From Calditrichota bacterium (GTDB lineage: Bacteria; Zhuqueibacterota; Zhuqueibacteria; Thermofontimicrobiales; Thermofontimicrobiaceae), in NCBI GenBank assembly GCA_013152715.1, contig JAADFU010000049.1, forward strand, positions 1-34,115: a stretch of 34,115 nt of DNA, in the 5' to 3' direction. Shown here one piece after another: positions 11,457-19,288 of this stretch. The translations under genes and the position numbers were made by a program. Below the pieces are notes generated by a model. The model saw only the letters and a program-made list of their open reading frames with translations. It had not been told where the DNA came from and searched no databases. Every line of letters starts with the position of its first letter. Position 1 is the stretch's first letter.

Positions 11457-11660
11457 ATTAAAGCAAATTATTCGTCCTGACGACGTCTGATTAGTGTGGA
11501 CACGTGTAACATATTATTAAAAAAGAGGTTAACTGTTAAAATCTTTAGTGACTAAAGTTTTATTCCCAAAAGTCTTCGCGGACGGCGTTAGCGGATTTGT
11601 TAAAAAAAATTCATCATTTGAATAAAAATTCTTGACATTTTCATTTTTTTAATTTATAAT
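11457..11660. other. Intergenic region upstream of the receptor operon promoter
   Basis: This part of the 453-nt gap between the M23 gene and the receptor gene is AT-rich. I see no gene and no convincing terminator for the M23 gene. Its right end is the promoter at 11632-11660. The other half of the gap is the folded leader described separately. Confidence 0.5.
11632..11660 (+). promoter_or_regulatory. Consensus sigma-70 promoter of the TonB-receptor operon
   Basis: TTGACA at 11632-11637, a 17-nt spacer and TATAAT at 11655-11660, a perfect match in both boxes. Transcription should start near 11667, which leaves an unusually long leader of about 243 nt before the TTG start at 11910. It is the strongest promoter in the window by consensus match. 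Confidence 0.85.
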
Positions 11661-11666
11661 GAAGTA

Positions 11667-11909
11667 AGGACGCAGAAGTAAGCGCTTCATGGGGCCATGT
11701 AAGTTCGCTTTCTGTTGTAAATATAAAAAGCCATAAACGGCAGGGGCCAGTTGTCGTTTATGGCTATCATGTCATTCAGCAAAAATAAACTGCTCGGGGC
11801 ATTTTATTGCCCGGAGAGGCAGTGCTATTTTTGCTGCAATCTATTACGTTGGACATTCAAAAAAGTTTCAAAATAATGTCATTTCAACTAACTCAGGGAG
11901 GATGAGAAA
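11667..11909 (+). ncRNA. Highly structured 5' leader with three tandem hairpins (candidate cis-regulatory RNA)
   Basis: Three strong hairpins follow the promoter. Hairpin A (11673-11714): CAGAA and AGCG pair with CGCTTTCTG (9 bp, GTA bulge), then CTT/AAG and CATG/CATG close a GGGC loop. Hairpin B (11729-11765): a 14-bp stem AGCCATAAACGGCA with TGTCGTTTATGGCT (one GU), with a nine-base loop GGGGCCAGT. Hairpin C (11777-11836): outer 11-bp stem CAGCAAAAATA/TATTTTTGCTG, middle ACTGC/GCAGT, inner GGGCA/TGCCC. A and B share GGGGCCA at the apex, and C has GGGGCA. None ends in a U-tract, so they are not terminators. I see no B12-box or other riboswitch core I know. The leader precedes a TonB-dependent receptor gene, so regulation by a nutrient or metabolite is a natural guess. 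It could also be a separate small RNA. Confidence 0.55.
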
Positions 11910-14900
11910 TTGCGGTACCCAAAATTTTTTCTCGGTTTAGCTGTCACTCTGATGGCAATAGCCATACTCAGTACCTCTACGGTTTTTGGCGGAACCACCG
12001 GAAAGGTTGCTGGCATCGTCAAAGATGCTGAGACAGGCGACCCTCTCCCCGGCGCCAACATAATTTTGGAGCGTACAACATTGGGAAGCGCCACAGATGT
12101 GGACGGCTACTATTTTATCATCAATGTGCCCCCGGGTCGCTACACTCTGAGAGCGACCATGATGGGGTACAAAACCCAAAAAGTTAAAATTCAGATCAAT
12201 GTTGATCTGACAACAAAAATTAACTTTTCCCTTACTCCGACGGTTATGGATCTGGGCACTTCCGTCGTGGTGACAGCGGAAAGGCCGCTGATTGAGCCAG
12301 AGGTGACCAGCAAGCGCGCCACGGTGACAGCGGATATGATCGAAAATATGCCTGTCCGCAGCGTGCAGGACATCATGGCGCTGCAATCCGGTGTAATTAT
12401 GATGGAACAGGGCAACAAAATCGCCGGATTCGAGACGCGCGGTATCGATCAAGTGCACGTCCGTGGCGGTCGAAGCGGAGAAATCGCCTACATGGTGGAC
12501 GGAATGTACGTGGAAGACGCCATTTATGCGGGCATGGGAACCAGTGTCAACCGGGAGGCAATTCAAGAGTTGACCACAATTATCGGCGCTTTCGACGCGG
12601 AATACGGCGAAGCCCAATCCGCTGTGGTGAACATTGTCACTAAAGAGGGCGCGTCAAGTTACCACATGTCTCTGGAGTACAATACCAGCGAAATCACGGG
12701 ACTGATTTCTGCCGCCGACGACGTGCGAAATGCGCACCAGATCATCGGTTCTTTTGGCGGTCCAATCCCGTTAATTAAAAATATGAGTTTTTTCCTTTCC
12801 GGCGAACAGAGTTACGGCGCTTATTCATCTTACGAGTTTGACAACCACGTTTACGATCCAACGCCGATAAAAGATATTATTAACAACCCCAATGATCCGC
12901 GCTATCAAAAGATTGCGGATCAAATCGAAAAAGGCATCATTACAGAAGTTGATAACATTAAACAATTGCGCAACAACAACGACTATTACTATGTCGGCGA
13001 TGTTTTGCGTGAGTGGAGCACCGGCGCCTGGCGCAAGGCGTGGCGCTATCGTTCTGACTGGGACAATGATGGTTTTAATGAACTCATTGCCTGGGATAAT
13101 TTCGCCGGCTGGAAAGGATTGGGGTGGAGAAAAAATTGGGATTTCTCCGGAAAACTTTCCTGGCGCGTCTCTCCGAACATCAAAATTATGATTCCGTTGC
13201 GCATGAATAGACGCGTGCAACAATCCTGGCAAGCAGGCTGGCAATACGCCATGCAAGGTCGGGATGTGTTAGATGACCGCACGGATCAACAGACTTTTAT
13301 TTTTACTCATCAATTGTCACCAAAATTGTTTTATGAAATTCGCGCTTCGCGATTTTTCAAAGGACGCTCTTATACGATTCATGGCATTAACGGACATCGC
13401 TTAACGCCCGGACACGCGGATGAATTTTCCGATGCCTATCGCATTTTTTACGATGATCCGTCAATCAGCGTGGATTTTGGTCCGCAAGAGTATCCAACAC
13501 GAATTTCCAACAATGGATTTTATGTTCCGATGACATTTGTGCGCTACGATACGATGACCGACGGCCGTGTGCGCCAAATTTATCGCGGCGCCGCCGAGCA
13601 GTATTGGAATTCCAACTTTCAGCAATCGATGCAATTTAAAGCCGATGTTACCTGGCAAGCGCATCGCTACCATCAGTTCAAAATGGGCGCGGAATACAAA
13701 ACATTCGGCTGGGGTAATAAGCTGTTTGGCAAGGATGTCGGCGGAATTCGCTTTCTGGAATACCAGTATCCCTGGACGCGCGGATACCCGTCCTTTTATC
13801 ACCTGAAGCCCGAAGAAGCGGCGGCGTACATTCAGGATAAAATGGATTTCAAAAATTTTATCGTGAATTTGGGCGTTCGTGTGGATTACGCAAATTCCAA
13901 AGGGAAAGCCTGGAAAGACTGGCAAGATCCGACCTCAGGCGTAGAGCAGGGCAAAAGAAAATATCAAATCAGCCCCCGCATCGGTGTAGGCCATCCGATT
14001 ACGGATCGCGCCACTTTTCATTTTAATTACGGACATTTCTTTCAGGTGCCGGATTACCGCGATTTGTACACCAACCAGAATCTCGATTTGAACGCACCAT
14101 CGCCATTCTTTGGCTGGGCGCACATGGACGCGCAGCGTACGATTTCGTACGAGATGGGCGTGGATTATCAATTCAGCGATTTCTGGAAATTTACCGTCGC
14201 GGCCTGGGCAAAAGAAAACAACGGCAATGCCGGAAGTTTTCGCATCACTGGGTTTGATCCCGATAGTCTGGGAGGTTATTCTTACGGTATTATCACTAAC
14301 AATGATTTTGGAAGCTCCAAAGGTATCGACCTTTCTGTTGAAAAGCGACCCAGTGATAATTATTTTCTCGAGTTGCAATATACATATTCCGTTGCTAAAG
14401 CAAATCAATACTATTCCTGGGCCGGGTACTGGGAAGGCAATACTGCGGAAAGCAGAGCAAAGAAAGAATACCTTTACCGATATGATACTCCCCATCTGTT
14501 GACAGGGATGTTCGGTTTTCAGTTTACCAAAGGCCAAGGTCCCACATTGTTTGGGTTCAAAGTTTTGGAAAATTTCCTGATGCAGTTCAACATGCGAATC
14601 CGCAGCGGTTATCCTTACACACCATCGGTAGGCGGACAGGGGCTGGAACCGAATACTGCTCGTCGGCCCATGGTATACAATATTGACGCCGTATTTCGCA
14701 GGGATTTCTATTTCGGCAATTCCATTCGTGCCGGCTTCATTGCTCGCATTACTAATCTGTTCAATATCAGAAACGTATTGCAAGTTTACTCTGAAACTGG
14801 CAGCCCGTCAGAACCGAATCCTGGCTACAGCAAAACGAACTACAGCACAAATTGGGATACGCCGTGGCATTGGAGCCAGGGAAGGCGCATCGATTTCGGG

Positions 14901-14918
14901 CTCAGGATGGAATTTTAA
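11910..14918 (+). CDS. TonB-dependent receptor with N-terminal CarboxypepD_reg-like domain
   Basis: 1002 aa. The signal peptide covers residues 1-27. A CarboxypepD_reg-like domain (about 30-115) has the signature VAGIVKDAETGDPLPGANI and SATDVDGYYFI. The plug domain (about 120-240) includes VVVTAERPLI, DQVHVRGGRSGEIAYMVDG and GAFDAEYGEAQSAVVNIVTKEG. The rest is a beta-barrel ending in an aromatic residue (RMEF). Such receptors import siderophores, glycans or other large solutes, or serve secretion. The ligand is unknown. The start is TTG at 11910, 8 nt after AGGGAGG (11895-11901). The ATG at 11902 abuts the Shine-Dalgarno and reads only 12 codons in another frame. First gene of a three-gene operon led by the folded leader. 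Confidence 0.9.
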   Translation: MRYPKFFLGLAVTLMAIAILSTSTVFGGTTGKVAGIVKDAETGDPLPGANIILERTTLGSATDVDGYYFIINVPPGRYTLRATMMGYKTQKVKIQINVDLTTKINFSLTPTVMDLGTSVVVTAERPLIEPEVTSKRATVTADMIENMPVRSVQDIMALQSGVIMMEQGNKIAGFETRGIDQVHVRGGRSGEIAYMVDGMYVEDAIYAGMGTSVNREAIQELTTIIGAFDAEYGEAQSAVVNIVTKEGASSYHMSLEYNTSEITGLISAADDVRNAHQIIGSFGGPIPLIKNMSFFLSGEQSYGAYSSYEFDNHVYDPTPIKDIINNPNDPRYQKIADQIEKGIITEVDNIKQLRNNNDYYYVGDVLREWSTGAWRKAWRYRSDWDNDGFNELIAWDNFAGWKGLGWRKNWDFSGKLSWRVSPNIKIMIPLRMNRRVQQSWQAGWQYAMQGRDVLDDRTDQQTFIFTHQLSPKLFYEIRASRFFKGRSYTIHGINGHRLTPGHADEFSDAYRIFYDDPSISVDFGPQEYPTRISNNGFYVPMTFVRYDTMTDGRVRQIYRGAAEQYWNSNFQQSMQFKADVTWQAHRYHQFKMGAEYKTFGWGNKLFGKDVGGIRFLEYQYPWTRGYPSFYHLKPEEAAAYIQDKMDFKNFIVNLGVRVDYANSKGKAWKDWQDPTSGVEQGKRKYQISPRIGVGHPITDRATFHFNYGHFFQVPDYRDLYTNQNLDLNAPSPFFGWAHMDAQRTISYEMGVDYQFSDFWKFTVAAWAKENNGNAGSFRITGFDPDSLGGYSYGIITNNDFGSSKGIDLSVEKRPSDNYFLELQYTYSVAKANQYYSWAGYWEGNTAESRAKKEYLYRYDTPHLLTGMFGFQFTKGQGPTLFGFKVLENFLMQFNMRIRSGYPYTPSVGGQGLEPNTARRPMVYNIDAVFRRDFYFGNSIRAGFIARITNLFNIRNVLQVYSETGSPSEPNPGYSKTNYSTNWDTPWHWSQGRRIDFGLRMEF

Positions 14919-15022: not shown

Positions 15023-18000
15023 ATGAAAAGGCTCATTTTCTACGGCATCGTCGCGACCGCTCTAATTTTGATGTTATTTTCCTCGATGTATGCCGCAGAT
15101 ATCAATAAAAAAGCGACTCGTAAATTGGCAAAAACTGCCAAAACGATTGATCAGGCGGTAGGACTATTAGATGCAGGAAAATTGCAGCACACTGTGTTTA
15201 ACGACGGTCGTCTGGCGACCTGGGCTTATCGTCCGAAAGTACCTTCTGTGTTTTACAAAGGGTGGTCTTATATCCCGGATTTGAATATGATGATTGGCGT
15301 ACCGGAAGATTCTGCGTGGACGCCCTATACTGTAGATATTGCAACCGGGCAACCCAAATTAAAAGGGCCTTCTGTTTCCGCGACTTTTGCCGGCGGCGAT
15401 TGGGGACCAAAAGCGGGATCGTACGGCGGACTTCATTCCGGCGATATGACATTCGGCGATGTGCTTACCGGAACGACGTTAGGCGATTATCCGCTGATGG
15501 CGACCAGTGTTTATCCCACAAGTTGGCCCAAAAATAGTGACGGCTACCCTTTTTGGCCCGGCCTATGGGCGGTGGATCCTAATACCGGAATTGTTGCGAT
15601 CGATTCGGTGCCGGCAAACGAATTTGATTTCAATAACGTGACGCGCCCCTGGATATATTGCCCTACTTCCGATGACACGATTTTAGTAGGCAAGTTTTTC
15701 TCCGACAAAGAAGTTTTCTTTAGCATGACGGACTATGATAAAAACAATCAGGGTCTAGTCTACGCAGAGAGCGACGGGGATACAACGCAGGGGTACGCAT
15801 TGAATATTCAACTGGACATCTCCGGTTTGTGTTATGGGCGTTCTTATGCAGAAGACATTATCTTTTTCCCCATGCAAATTATCAACAACAGCACTCACGA
15901 CTACCATGATGTCTATGTCGGATTTTACAATGATTCCGATGTTCCGGAATATAATCTGACTTCCACATTAAATGACCGTATGGACTGGATGACTTTTCTC
16001 AAGAGCGAGTACGATGTGGAAAATGACACCACATATCAGTACAACATGGCGTATATTTACGATTACCGCTACGGGACAGGAGATTTTCCCGGTCCGGAAT
16101 ATAAAGTCATCCCGGCATTGAAAATTTTGGAAACGCCGCCTGCGCCGCGTGACATCGATCTTGACGGCGATGGCCTGACTGATATTTACGAAGGAGATCA
16201 ATTGGGTATCACCGGTTGGCACTGGTTTGAGTGGGAGCAACGTCCGGGACAGGTGGATAATACGCGGCTGGAACTCATCAGCTACAAAATTTTGGCCGGC
16301 GACACCACCGATATTTTGCCGGAGGAAGACAATGCCTATTTTTGGCCTTCGCCTAACGGAAAACTAAATCCCCATTTTGATTCTCCTGAGGGCATCAAAG
16401 AAATGTTTCCCGATGGTACGGACTGCGTTTTTATTATGAGCTCCGGGCCTTTTGATATTGCGGCGGGCGACACAACGACTTTCTCGTTCGCGCTGGTCAT
16501 GGGCGACGATACAAATGACGTTAAATTTAACGCCCGCACCGCTCAGTTCATGTATGAATTGAATTATCAGGGCGCAGATCCGCCGCCGACGCCGACGGTT
16601 CAGGCTGTTGCCGGAGACGGGGAAGTGACTCTCTACTGGAATGATGCTGCGGAAAAAGCAGTCGATTTGATGACGGCTTACCATGACTTCGAGGGCTATA
16701 AAATTTACCGTACGACGTCCAACCCGGTAAATAATGAATGGGGAGACAAAATTTATGACGGCAACGGACTGGAAGTCGGTTTTGTTCCGTTGGCGCAATA
16801 CGATTTGAACAACAGTATTTCAGGATTGGACCCGGTATATCCGCATTTGAACCTGGGAACTAACAACGGAATAGTTCACATGTTCGTTGACAAAAATGTG
16901 ACTGACGGCGTGACATATTGGTACACAGTCACTGCTTACGACCGGGGTGTGCCTCAGGATCCTGACTTGAATCCCGACAACTGGGCGCCGCTGAATTATC
17001 TCGAATGTTCCAAAGGAACCAATCCCAGCGCCTCGCCGAATCTGGTGATGGTCGTTCCCGGGAAAACCGCTTCCAATTTGGTGCAGTCTGATGTGAAAAT
17101 TCAGCCGCTTCCCGGCACTTACGCCAATAATGATCTTGCAGCGCTAATTGTTGATCCCTACGCAATTACCGGCCACTCTTATTTAATTTCATTTGACGAC
17201 ACCACGTCGACGAGCACGACGTACAGTTTGTTGGACGAGGTGACCGGAAGCTATCTCGTCGAAAATTCGCCGAGTATCCACGGACAGGAATCGCCGATCA
17301 TTGATGGCATGATTTTGACCATCAACCAGAAATTTGACGCGATTGGCTTTGATCCGGATTCTGTCGAATGGTATCACGGCTCTCCGGGTACGCCTTCAAA
17401 TTGTAATTGGCAGTTTTCCGGTTCCTACATTACGAAAGAGCATTTTGATTACGAAATCCGTTTCACAGAAGAACCGGATACGGCATTTTTTCCGCCGACG
17501 CTTGTGGTGCCATTTGAAATCTGGAACATTACTTTGAATCAAAAGGCGAGATTTGCCCAATATCCGCCGCCAAATCCGGCAGATACAACGGAGGAGATGA
17601 AAAATTCATTTACCGACGGCGATGAATTTACCTTACAGGAGACCATTAACGGCAGGATGTCTTTTACGGTAAAACTTAAATTATTCAAACCGCCGCTAAA
17701 CATGATTATTGACACGACTTTTGTCACGGCAGACAGCATGGTATTTGACACCACTTACACGGACACCAGTGTCGCGCCTGTCACCGGCGATGTTTTGCAA
17801 CTCATTACCGGAAAGCCGTTTAAAGGCAGCCGTGATTTCTTCCGCATCAACACCGCGCCGTACATGACAAGAGAGGTGACAGATGATGACATGGACAAAA
17901 TTAAAGTTGTCCCGAATCCTTACATGGTGTCTGCGGAATGGGAGTTAGACCCGTACGTCAAACAATTGCAATTCACTAATTTGCCTGCAGAGTGCGATAT

Positions 18001-18184
18001 CCACATTTACACTCTCAGCGGTGAGCGCGTAATCAGTCTGCATCACAAAAATGATGTCGAAGGATGGGAATATTGGAATATGCTGTCTTTCAATCAGCAG
18101 GAAGTGGCTTATGGCTGTTACGTTTATGTGGTTGAAACGCCGTCAGGGAAAAAGAAAATTGGTAAATTCGTCATACTCAGATAA
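15023..18184 (+). CDS. Large secreted protein with FN3-like domain and FlgD/T9SS-like C-terminal sorting domain
   Basis: 1053 aa. A signal peptide (residues 1-25, ending YAAD) is followed by a long beta-rich region without a family I recognise. A calcium-type acidic loop DIDLDGDGLTD is near residue 380. A fibronectin-III-like domain starts around 530 (PPTPTVQAVAGDGEVTLYW) and includes YWYTVTAYDRG. The last 90 residues, from KIKVVPNPYMVSAEW to KKIGKFVILR, form a FlgD Ig-like or T9SS type A sorting domain with the usual PNPY start and K-F-V-I-L-R end. It is therefore probably surface-attached or secreted. It lies 104 nt after the receptor and 51 nt before the PorV-like gene, in one operon. AGGA just upstream supports the ATG at 15023. 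Its role may be substrate binding for the receptor, but this is inference. Confidence 0.8.
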   Translation: MKRLIFYGIVATALILMLFSSMYAADINKKATRKLAKTAKTIDQAVGLLDAGKLQHTVFNDGRLATWAYRPKVPSVFYKGWSYIPDLNMMIGVPEDSAWTPYTVDIATGQPKLKGPSVSATFAGGDWGPKAGSYGGLHSGDMTFGDVLTGTTLGDYPLMATSVYPTSWPKNSDGYPFWPGLWAVDPNTGIVAIDSVPANEFDFNNVTRPWIYCPTSDDTILVGKFFSDKEVFFSMTDYDKNNQGLVYAESDGDTTQGYALNIQLDISGLCYGRSYAEDIIFFPMQIINNSTHDYHDVYVGFYNDSDVPEYNLTSTLNDRMDWMTFLKSEYDVENDTTYQYNMAYIYDYRYGTGDFPGPEYKVIPALKILETPPAPRDIDLDGDGLTDIYEGDQLGITGWHWFEWEQRPGQVDNTRLELISYKILAGDTTDILPEEDNAYFWPSPNGKLNPHFDSPEGIKEMFPDGTDCVFIMSSGPFDIAAGDTTTFSFALVMGDDTNDVKFNARTAQFMYELNYQGADPPPTPTVQAVAGDGEVTLYWNDAAEKAVDLMTAYHDFEGYKIYRTTSNPVNNEWGDKIYDGNGLEVGFVPLAQYDLNNSISGLDPVYPHLNLGTNNGIVHMFVDKNVTDGVTYWYTVTAYDRGVPQDPDLNPDNWAPLNYLECSKGTNPSASPNLVMVVPGKTASNLVQSDVKIQPLPGTYANNDLAALIVDPYAITGHSYLISFDDTTSTSTTYSLLDEVTGSYLVENSPSIHGQESPIIDGMILTINQKFDAIGFDPDSVEWYHGSPGTPSNCNWQFSGSYITKEHFDYEIRFTEEPDTAFFPPTLVVPFEIWNITLNQKARFAQYPPPNPADTTEEMKNSFTDGDEFTLQETINGRMSFTVKLKLFKPPLNMIIDTTFVTADSMVFDTTYTDTSVAPVTGDVLQLITGKPFKGSRDFFRINTAPYMTREVTDDDMDKIKVVPNPYMVSAEWELDPYVKQLQFTNLPAECDIHIYTLSGERVISLHHKNDVEGWEYWNMLSFNQQEVAYGCYVYVVETPSGKKKIGKFVILR

Positions 18185-18235
18185 GTGAATTGGAGTTTTG
18201 AAAAAATAAAATTGTCAATCAAGGAGATAATAAAA

Positions 18236-19288
18236 ATGAAAAGAGTCATGATATTTCTCTTCATCGTTGTCTTTGTCGGCGCATTGCAGGTCTGGTCGCA
18301 AGACATCAGCCGGGTTGGTACGGCAGCGGGACAATTTTTGAAATTGGGCGTGGGCGCTCGAACCGGCGCTCTCGGAGAAGCTGCGGTCACTATCCCCGGC
18401 GAGGTCACCGGTTTGTACTGGAACCCGGGAACGATCGCGACAATCGATCACACGGCAATGGCTTTTTCCAGAAATGAGCTTTACGCCGACATGTCGTATA
18501 ATTTTATCGGCGTTGTTCAGCCATTGGGCGGAGGCAATGCAATCGGAGTAAGTGCAATTTTTCTCAATACCGGCGATATGGAAATTACCACGCTGGCGCA
18601 TCCGGAAGGTACTGAGACTTATTTTAATTGGCAAGCTTATTGCTTCGGTTTGACTTACAGCCGCTACGTGACTGATCGTTTGAGTCTCGGCGGAACGATT
18701 AAATACATTCGCGAAGGAGCTTATCATCTGCAAGCTCATACTATTGCCATCGATTTGGGATCGTTATTGGATACTGGCATTTTGGGAATGAAAATGGGAA
18801 TGACGCTGAGCAATTTCGGAAGCGACATGCGTCTGGAAGGTCCGAGTCTCAGAGTGTCCCACGACCGCTGGCCCACTAGGCCCGGAACGCTGCCCGTAGA
18901 TGCGTATTTAAAGACGGAAAAGTATCCACTGCCGCTGATGTTTCGCCTGGGATTGTCAATGGAACTCATCGGCGCACAGGGACAAATCAGTTCCAGCGAG
19001 ACCAGCCGCTTGTTCGTAGCCGCGGACGTCTATGATCCGAATGACGCTTTAATGCGATCCAATTTCGGGATTGAATATGCGTGGAAGGACATGTTCTATC
19101 TCCGCGCCGGATATCGCGGCTTGGCGGTTGAAAAGGATGAATACAAATCCTACAACACCGCCAGCTATACTTTCGGCGGCGGTCTGGCGTACGATTTGAA
19201 GTTCGCCAGCTTTCGCGTTGACTACGCATTCACTGATTTCCAATTGCTGGGATCCGGGCACTTGTTCACATTGGTGTTGGGATTTTAA
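18236..19288 (+). CDS. PorV/PorQ-like outer-membrane protein (UPF0164 family)
   Basis: 350 aa from ATG 18236, which has AAGGAG at 18221-18226. The frame is open to a GTG at 18185 touching the upstream stop, but the signal peptide MKRVMIFLFIVVFVGALQVWSQ begins at 18236. The mature N-terminus has the family signature: GTAAGQFLKLGVGARTGALGEA followed by GLYWNPG. The remainder is amphipathic beta-strand with a final aromatic residue (FTLVLGF), as in PorV-type FadL-like barrels. In Bacteroidota PorV carries T9SS cargo to the sortase. Here it is encoded right after a protein with a T9SS-like C-terminal domain, which supports a secretion or surface-anchoring role. A strong terminator follows. Confidence 0.82.
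   Translation: MKRVMIFLFIVVFVGALQVWSQDISRVGTAAGQFLKLGVGARTGALGEAAVTIPGEVTGLYWNPGTIATIDHTAMAFSRNELYADMSYNFIGVVQPLGGGNAIGVSAIFLNTGDMEITTLAHPEGTETYFNWQAYCFGLTYSRYVTDRLSLGGTIKYIREGAYHLQAHTIAIDLGSLLDTGILGMKMGMTLSNFGSDMRLEGPSLRVSHDRWPTRPGTLPVDAYLKTEKYPLPLMFRLGLSMELIGAQGQISSSETSRLFVAADVYDPNDALMRSNFGIEYAWKDMFYLRAGYRGLAVEKDEYKSYNTASYTFGGGLAYDLKFASFRVDYAFTDFQLLGSGHLFTLVLGF

Follow-up and report, generated by a model that had tools for sequence, protein, structure and literature searches.

A conserved, structured leader RNA of a SusC-like receptor operon in candidate division KSB1 bacteria

Promoter, leader and operon

The DNA ahead of a SusC-like receptor operon in a Calditrichota bacterium encodes a leader that is a real, conserved and undescribed regulatory RNA of a known kind, and comparison of orthologous sequences indicates that its core of two hairpins, H2 and H3, is a genuine conserved RNA element. 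The leader lies in the window, by which we mean the whole 34,115-nucleotide stretch that was analyzed, and runs for 249 nt (11661-11909) from a TATAAT box to the TTG start codon of the receptor gene at 11910. The first-pass annotation had proposed a new structured leader here; conservation, covariation and the absence of an Rfam match support this, with the exception of the 5'-most hairpin, H1, which is missing from most relatives. Orthologous leaders were compared in family f1 (the window genome, G000; its sister G001, a candidate division KSB1 MAG; G004, G005 and G006), in family f4 (G012, G017 and G022) and in family f5 (G013 and G018).

The promoter is as perfect as that annotation had stated, with TTGACA (11632-11637) and TATAAT (11655-11660) separated by 17 nt and matching the sigma-70 pattern at 12 of 12 bases; transcription from this plus-strand element (11632-11660) is predicted to start near 11667. 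In G004, whose receptor is only 35-49% identical, the promoter nonetheless matches at 28 of 29 bases and H2 is largely preserved. This promoter type is genuinely used in the window genome, since 158 sites carry at most one mismatch to it vs. 17 for a reversed control pattern. At the downstream end a Shine-Dalgarno sequence, GGGAGG (11896-11901, plus strand), stands 8 nt before the TTG start, a start codon common to the orthologues of G001, G004, G005 and G006 as well, and is not buried in H1-H3.

All three genes that had been placed behind the leader were identified downstream of it on the plus strand. The first (11910-14918) encodes a SusC-like TonB-dependent receptor of 1002 aa with CarboxypepD_reg and Plug domains; the second (15023-18184) a secreted protein of 1053 aa, which has no match in Pfam, NCBIfam or PDB and whose C-terminus resembles, by eye, a type IX secretion sorting domain; and the third (18185-19288) a PorV/PorQ-family protein (NF033709, 165 bits). 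The secreted protein is conserved together with the receptor and the PorV-like gene across KSB1 and Ignavibacteria, and the three genes stand together in nearly all orthologous loci, the G006 contig ending within the second gene. Because the gene upstream of the leader varies between lineages, the leader goes with the operon. The orthologous operons of Melioribacter and Ignavibacteria, with the same three genes, show no leader of this kind in the sequence ahead of them.

The folding energy of the leader is -76.7 kcal/mol (z -3.97), a value reached by none of 200 shuffles, and z falls to -5.4 for its first 180 nt and to -7 for H2 and H3 alone. A general property of receptor genes is ruled out as the source of this structure, as the 18 paralogous receptor genes of the window genome lack both a perfect promoter and a comparable fold. 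A general property of strong promoters is likewise ruled out: among the 20 other perfect promoters of the genome, a comparably structured leader follows one, and that one is a palindrome array. At this site (L097:45-215, contig C117 near 30840) the promoter is followed by the short palindromes CTCCTTTGGAG, CCCTTCGGG, CGCCGAAGGCG and CCCCAGAGGGG, a REP-like repeat cluster that no gene follows closely.

Hairpins and their conservation

The three strong hairpins that had been predicted are all present on the plus strand. H1 (11672-11714), drawn from the predicted fold and comparison with the sister, has the apex CAUG-GGGC-CAUG. H2 (11729-11765) is a long hairpin of 15 pairs in the predicted fold of the window leader, with the loop GGGGCCAGU; covariation over five species and 93% identity to the sister support it. 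H3 (11777-11836), defined by folds and covariation, is a compound hairpin in which an A/U-rich basal stem leads through internal loops to a G/C-rich inner stem, with 11 pairs followed by two inner stems. The earlier statement that the hairpins lack U-tracts was inexact, for the 3' arm of H3 contains a U-run, UAUUUUU (11826-11832, plus strand), which pairs with an A-run on the 5' side and is homologous in position to the U-tract of the relatives' terminators. The corollary that these hairpins are not terminators is contradicted by those relatives, where a U-tract accompanies H3 and the hairpin scores as an intrinsic terminator.

An apex motif GGGGCC(A) shared by the hairpins had also been suggested, and the motif does occur at three sites, as GGGGCCA in H1 (11691-11697) and H2 (11743-11749) and as GGGGCA at 11796-11801. 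The last of these belongs to the 5' arm of the H3 inner stem rather than to a loop, and part of the H1 copy is paired within the CAUG-GGGC-CAUG apex. We reject the shared apex as a conserved feature, given that it is kept in G001 and not in G004, G005 or G006; about two repeated 7-mers are expected by chance in 249 nt (249 × 248/2/4^7 = 1.9).

H1 itself is confined to the window genome and G001, between which it shows two double compensatory changes; G004 has a different hairpin there, and H1 is absent from G005, G006 and families f4 and f5. Identity between the window and G001 is 93% in the promoter, 72% in the H1 region, 93% in H2, 82% in H3 and 100% in the ribosome-binding region, compared with 52% in upstream intergenic DNA and 47% at fourfold-degenerate sites as neutral references.

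A covariance model of the H2 and H3 core, built from the window, G001 and G004 leaders, recovered the G006 and G005 leaders, both unseen in its building, at about 3e-5. When 82 genomes of the phylum were scanned, plus-strand matches were found only before the receptor operon, one per genome, with the G005 leader missed under the stricter filters of that scan. Homologous leaders were aligned with the covariance model because MAFFT misaligned H3 of the diverged ones. Across the five f1 leaders, 15 of the 28 pairs (6 of 14 modeled pairs in H2 and 9 of 14 in H3) have changed on both sides and 93% of cells are paired, counts that lean towards the model to which the alignment was fitted and that come from few sequences. 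The covariation score was reached by none of 500 shuffles, and sliding the alignment by 1-3 columns lowered the paired cells from 93% to 38-49%.

The orthologous receptors of families f4 and f5 are likewise preceded by a TTGACA promoter, after which come a single hairpin and a compound hairpin carrying a U-run. The layout is like that of f1 while the sequences are different, and the f1 covariance model has no match to any f4 or f5 leader. In f4 the first hairpin (H2) is identical at 36 of 36 bases in the three species, between flanks that differ, and occurs once in each genome; in f5 the hairpins are preserved with compensatory changes.

Several further features lie between H3 and the ribosome-binding site. 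A conserved box, AAAAAAGTTTCAAA (11859-11872, plus strand), belongs to a pattern (R)AAAAAGTT(T/G/C)CAA found there in f1 and f4 leaders (window 11859-11872; L016:1421-1432), and AAAAAAGTTBCAAA has only two occurrences in the whole genome. The G004 leader carries an insertion at this place (L032:2460-2590, minus strand) with long inverted ends, GGGGGTGGGATAA...TTATATCCCACCCCC; a similar end at L032:5-16 suggests a possible small mobile repeat. In G005 (L011:1180-1490) about 300 additional, strongly folded nt, absent from the other leaders, separate H3 from the start codon.

Proposed attenuation and alternative explanations

We tentatively favor, at a confidence a little short of even, the explanation that the leader works as a transcription attenuator in which H2 is the recognition hairpin and H3 a conditional terminator. 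Polymerase would start at the strong promoter and make H2 (plus H1 in the window species) and then H3, a terminator-like hairpin whose U-run could release it, leaving a short leader RNA by default. If H2 were bound by some factor (protein, RNA or ligand), or if H3 were blocked, polymerase would read through, and the whole of H3 with its basal clamp would then fold in the mRNA, upstream of the free ribosome-binding site. Termination at H3, its regulation and the part of H2, a candidate recognition element, are all steps that we infer.

The best hairpin-plus-U-tract site coincides with H3 in all 10 orthologous leaders. Its terminator score was matched by 0-1 of 40 shuffles in f4 and f5 and by 0 of 40 in G001, and by 3 of 40 in the window, 3 of 40 in G004, 6 of 40 in G006 and 18 of 40 in G005. 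The f4 terminators are strong, with dG of about -27 to -29 and a U-tract score of 4.78, and lie between promoter and gene; attenuation is placed first because intrinsic terminators of this strength in this position are hard to explain otherwise. Covariation, the recovery of unseen leaders, conservation above neutral DNA and the unique, fully identical f4 H2 also speak for it, as does the agreement in layout with the proven antitermination leader dfn of LoaP (PMC12691694). Against it stand the modest terminator score of the window, the scores of G006 and G005 and the pairing of the U-run within H3, and the single-sequence and consensus folds revealed no conserved antiterminator pairing. Furthermore, two covarying pairs lie beyond the U-run in f1 (columns 61-140 and 62-139), from which it follows that the complete H3 matters in read-through RNA and is under selection there, which counts against attenuation.

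These same pairs fit the main alternative, which we regard as possible if rather doubtful, namely that the hairpins stabilize the 5' end of the transcript of an abundant outer-membrane protein, as in ompA, with no termination or sensing. In the ompA leader of Escherichia coli (cited in PMC7509114), end-dependent decay is blocked by a stable hairpin placed at the very 5' end. The likeness to that 5' untranslated region is that stable 5' hairpins precede the strong ribosome-binding site of a gene for an outer-membrane protein. The KSB1 sequence would accommodate a hairpin near the 5' end if transcription begins at the predicted start, about 7 nt after TATAAT, and in most orthologues a hairpin begins a few to about 30 nt past that start. 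The strong promoter, the free ribosome-binding site and the keeping of architecture between families while sequence changes are also compatible with stabilization. It leaves unexplained, however, the conserved H3 U-run, the strong f4 and f5 terminators and the invariant f4 H2, and 18 receptor paralogues in the window genome do without such a leader. The KSB1 leader differs from ompA in its conserved U-run, its terminator-like hairpin and its sequence-constrained first hairpin.

Processive antitermination, in which H2 and H3 would load a specialized NusG (LoaP) or act on polymerase like put RNA and so carry it across terminators down the 7.4-kb operon, appears unlikely to us. It is favored by the position of the hairpins, which come directly after the promoter of a long operon; 7 of the 10 genomes contain second NusG-family genes, and an element acting on polymerase would be compatible with full H3 mattering in read-through RNA. 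Two hairpins close behind a promoter also make up the put antitermination RNA of phage HK022, a likeness of layout alone, as the KSB1 leader serves a cellular receptor operon and its H3 is terminator-like in relatives. By analogy of layout, the closest proven arrangement is the dfn leader of LoaP, in which a strong promoter precedes first a sequence-conserved hairpin and next a terminator within the leader (PMC12691694); the order of parts is the same, and the dfn and mln leaders of Bacillus velezensis share with ours a long leader, a conserved hairpin before a terminator and a long operon (PMC12691694). The LoaP hairpin is small, however, with a UNCG tetraloop (PMC12691694), whereas H2 has a stem of 12-15 bp and a loop of about 7-14 nt, and by reading, no UNCG loop occurs in H2 of the ten leaders. 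Moreover, G012 (97% complete) has a perfectly conserved H2 and a single NusG-family gene, and in both genomes inspected (G000 and G018) the extra NusG adjoins exopolysaccharide kinase genes. We therefore do not assign the leader to the LoaP-dependent class, since it lacks the UNCG loop and a NusG paralogue is not present wherever the leader is (G012). The second NusG-family genes at L123:1107-1724 and L121:1471-2064 adjoin Wzc-like tyrosine kinase genes and are probably UpxY/LoaP-like regulators of KSB1 exopolysaccharide operons.

Least probable, and in our estimate very unlikely, is a metabolite riboswitch in which H2 and H3 would serve as the binding site for a small molecule related to the receptor substrate. 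A conserved and covarying cis leader ahead of a transport-type receptor would suit such a role, and the lack of an Rfam match would make the riboswitch a new one; on the other hand, no junction or pseudoknot containing invariant unpaired bases was seen, the loops vary between species, and a single gene family is controlled by a single copy per genome. Rfam 15 gave no match at or above gathering score for the window and six orthologous loci, with sub-threshold matches at chance level. The leader resembles the leader attenuators and riboswitches of Rfam 15 in being a conserved cis leader with a terminator-like hairpin, and differs in matching none of them at gathering score and in having no meaningful match below it.

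Other identities were tried and rejected. The leader is not a repeat family, as neither DNA comparison, the covariance model nor the f4 pattern yields a second genomic copy. Regulation by CsrA/RsmA is ruled out for f1, CsrA being found in 0 of the 5 f1 genomes, including G000 (98%) and G005 (95%); the gene is missing in G000, G001 and G004-G006 and present in the f4 and f5 genomes G012, G013, G017, G018 and G022. A leader peptide was dismissed because the 15-codon frame opened by an ATG in H1 of the window is not kept in the sister and has, by eye, no evident ribosome-binding site. A DNA operator was set aside in that arm spacing varies among species and the paired changes suit an RNA stem better.

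Significance for KSB1 bacteria

Beyond attenuation as such, we consider it a rather remote prospect that the leader represents a new class in which a sequence-specific H2, read by a factor or metabolite, controls a clamp-locked terminator H3 across several KSB1 families. If true, this would be a new leader class dedicated to the operon of a SusC-like receptor, a CTD-protein and a PorV-like protein. The element is compact (about 110 nt), has natural variants from ten genomes and is suitable for in vitro work. The KSB1 bacteria are uncultured and their regulation is almost unexplored, and a single-copy, conserved leader on one receptor operon of about 19 compared points to an operon under special control.
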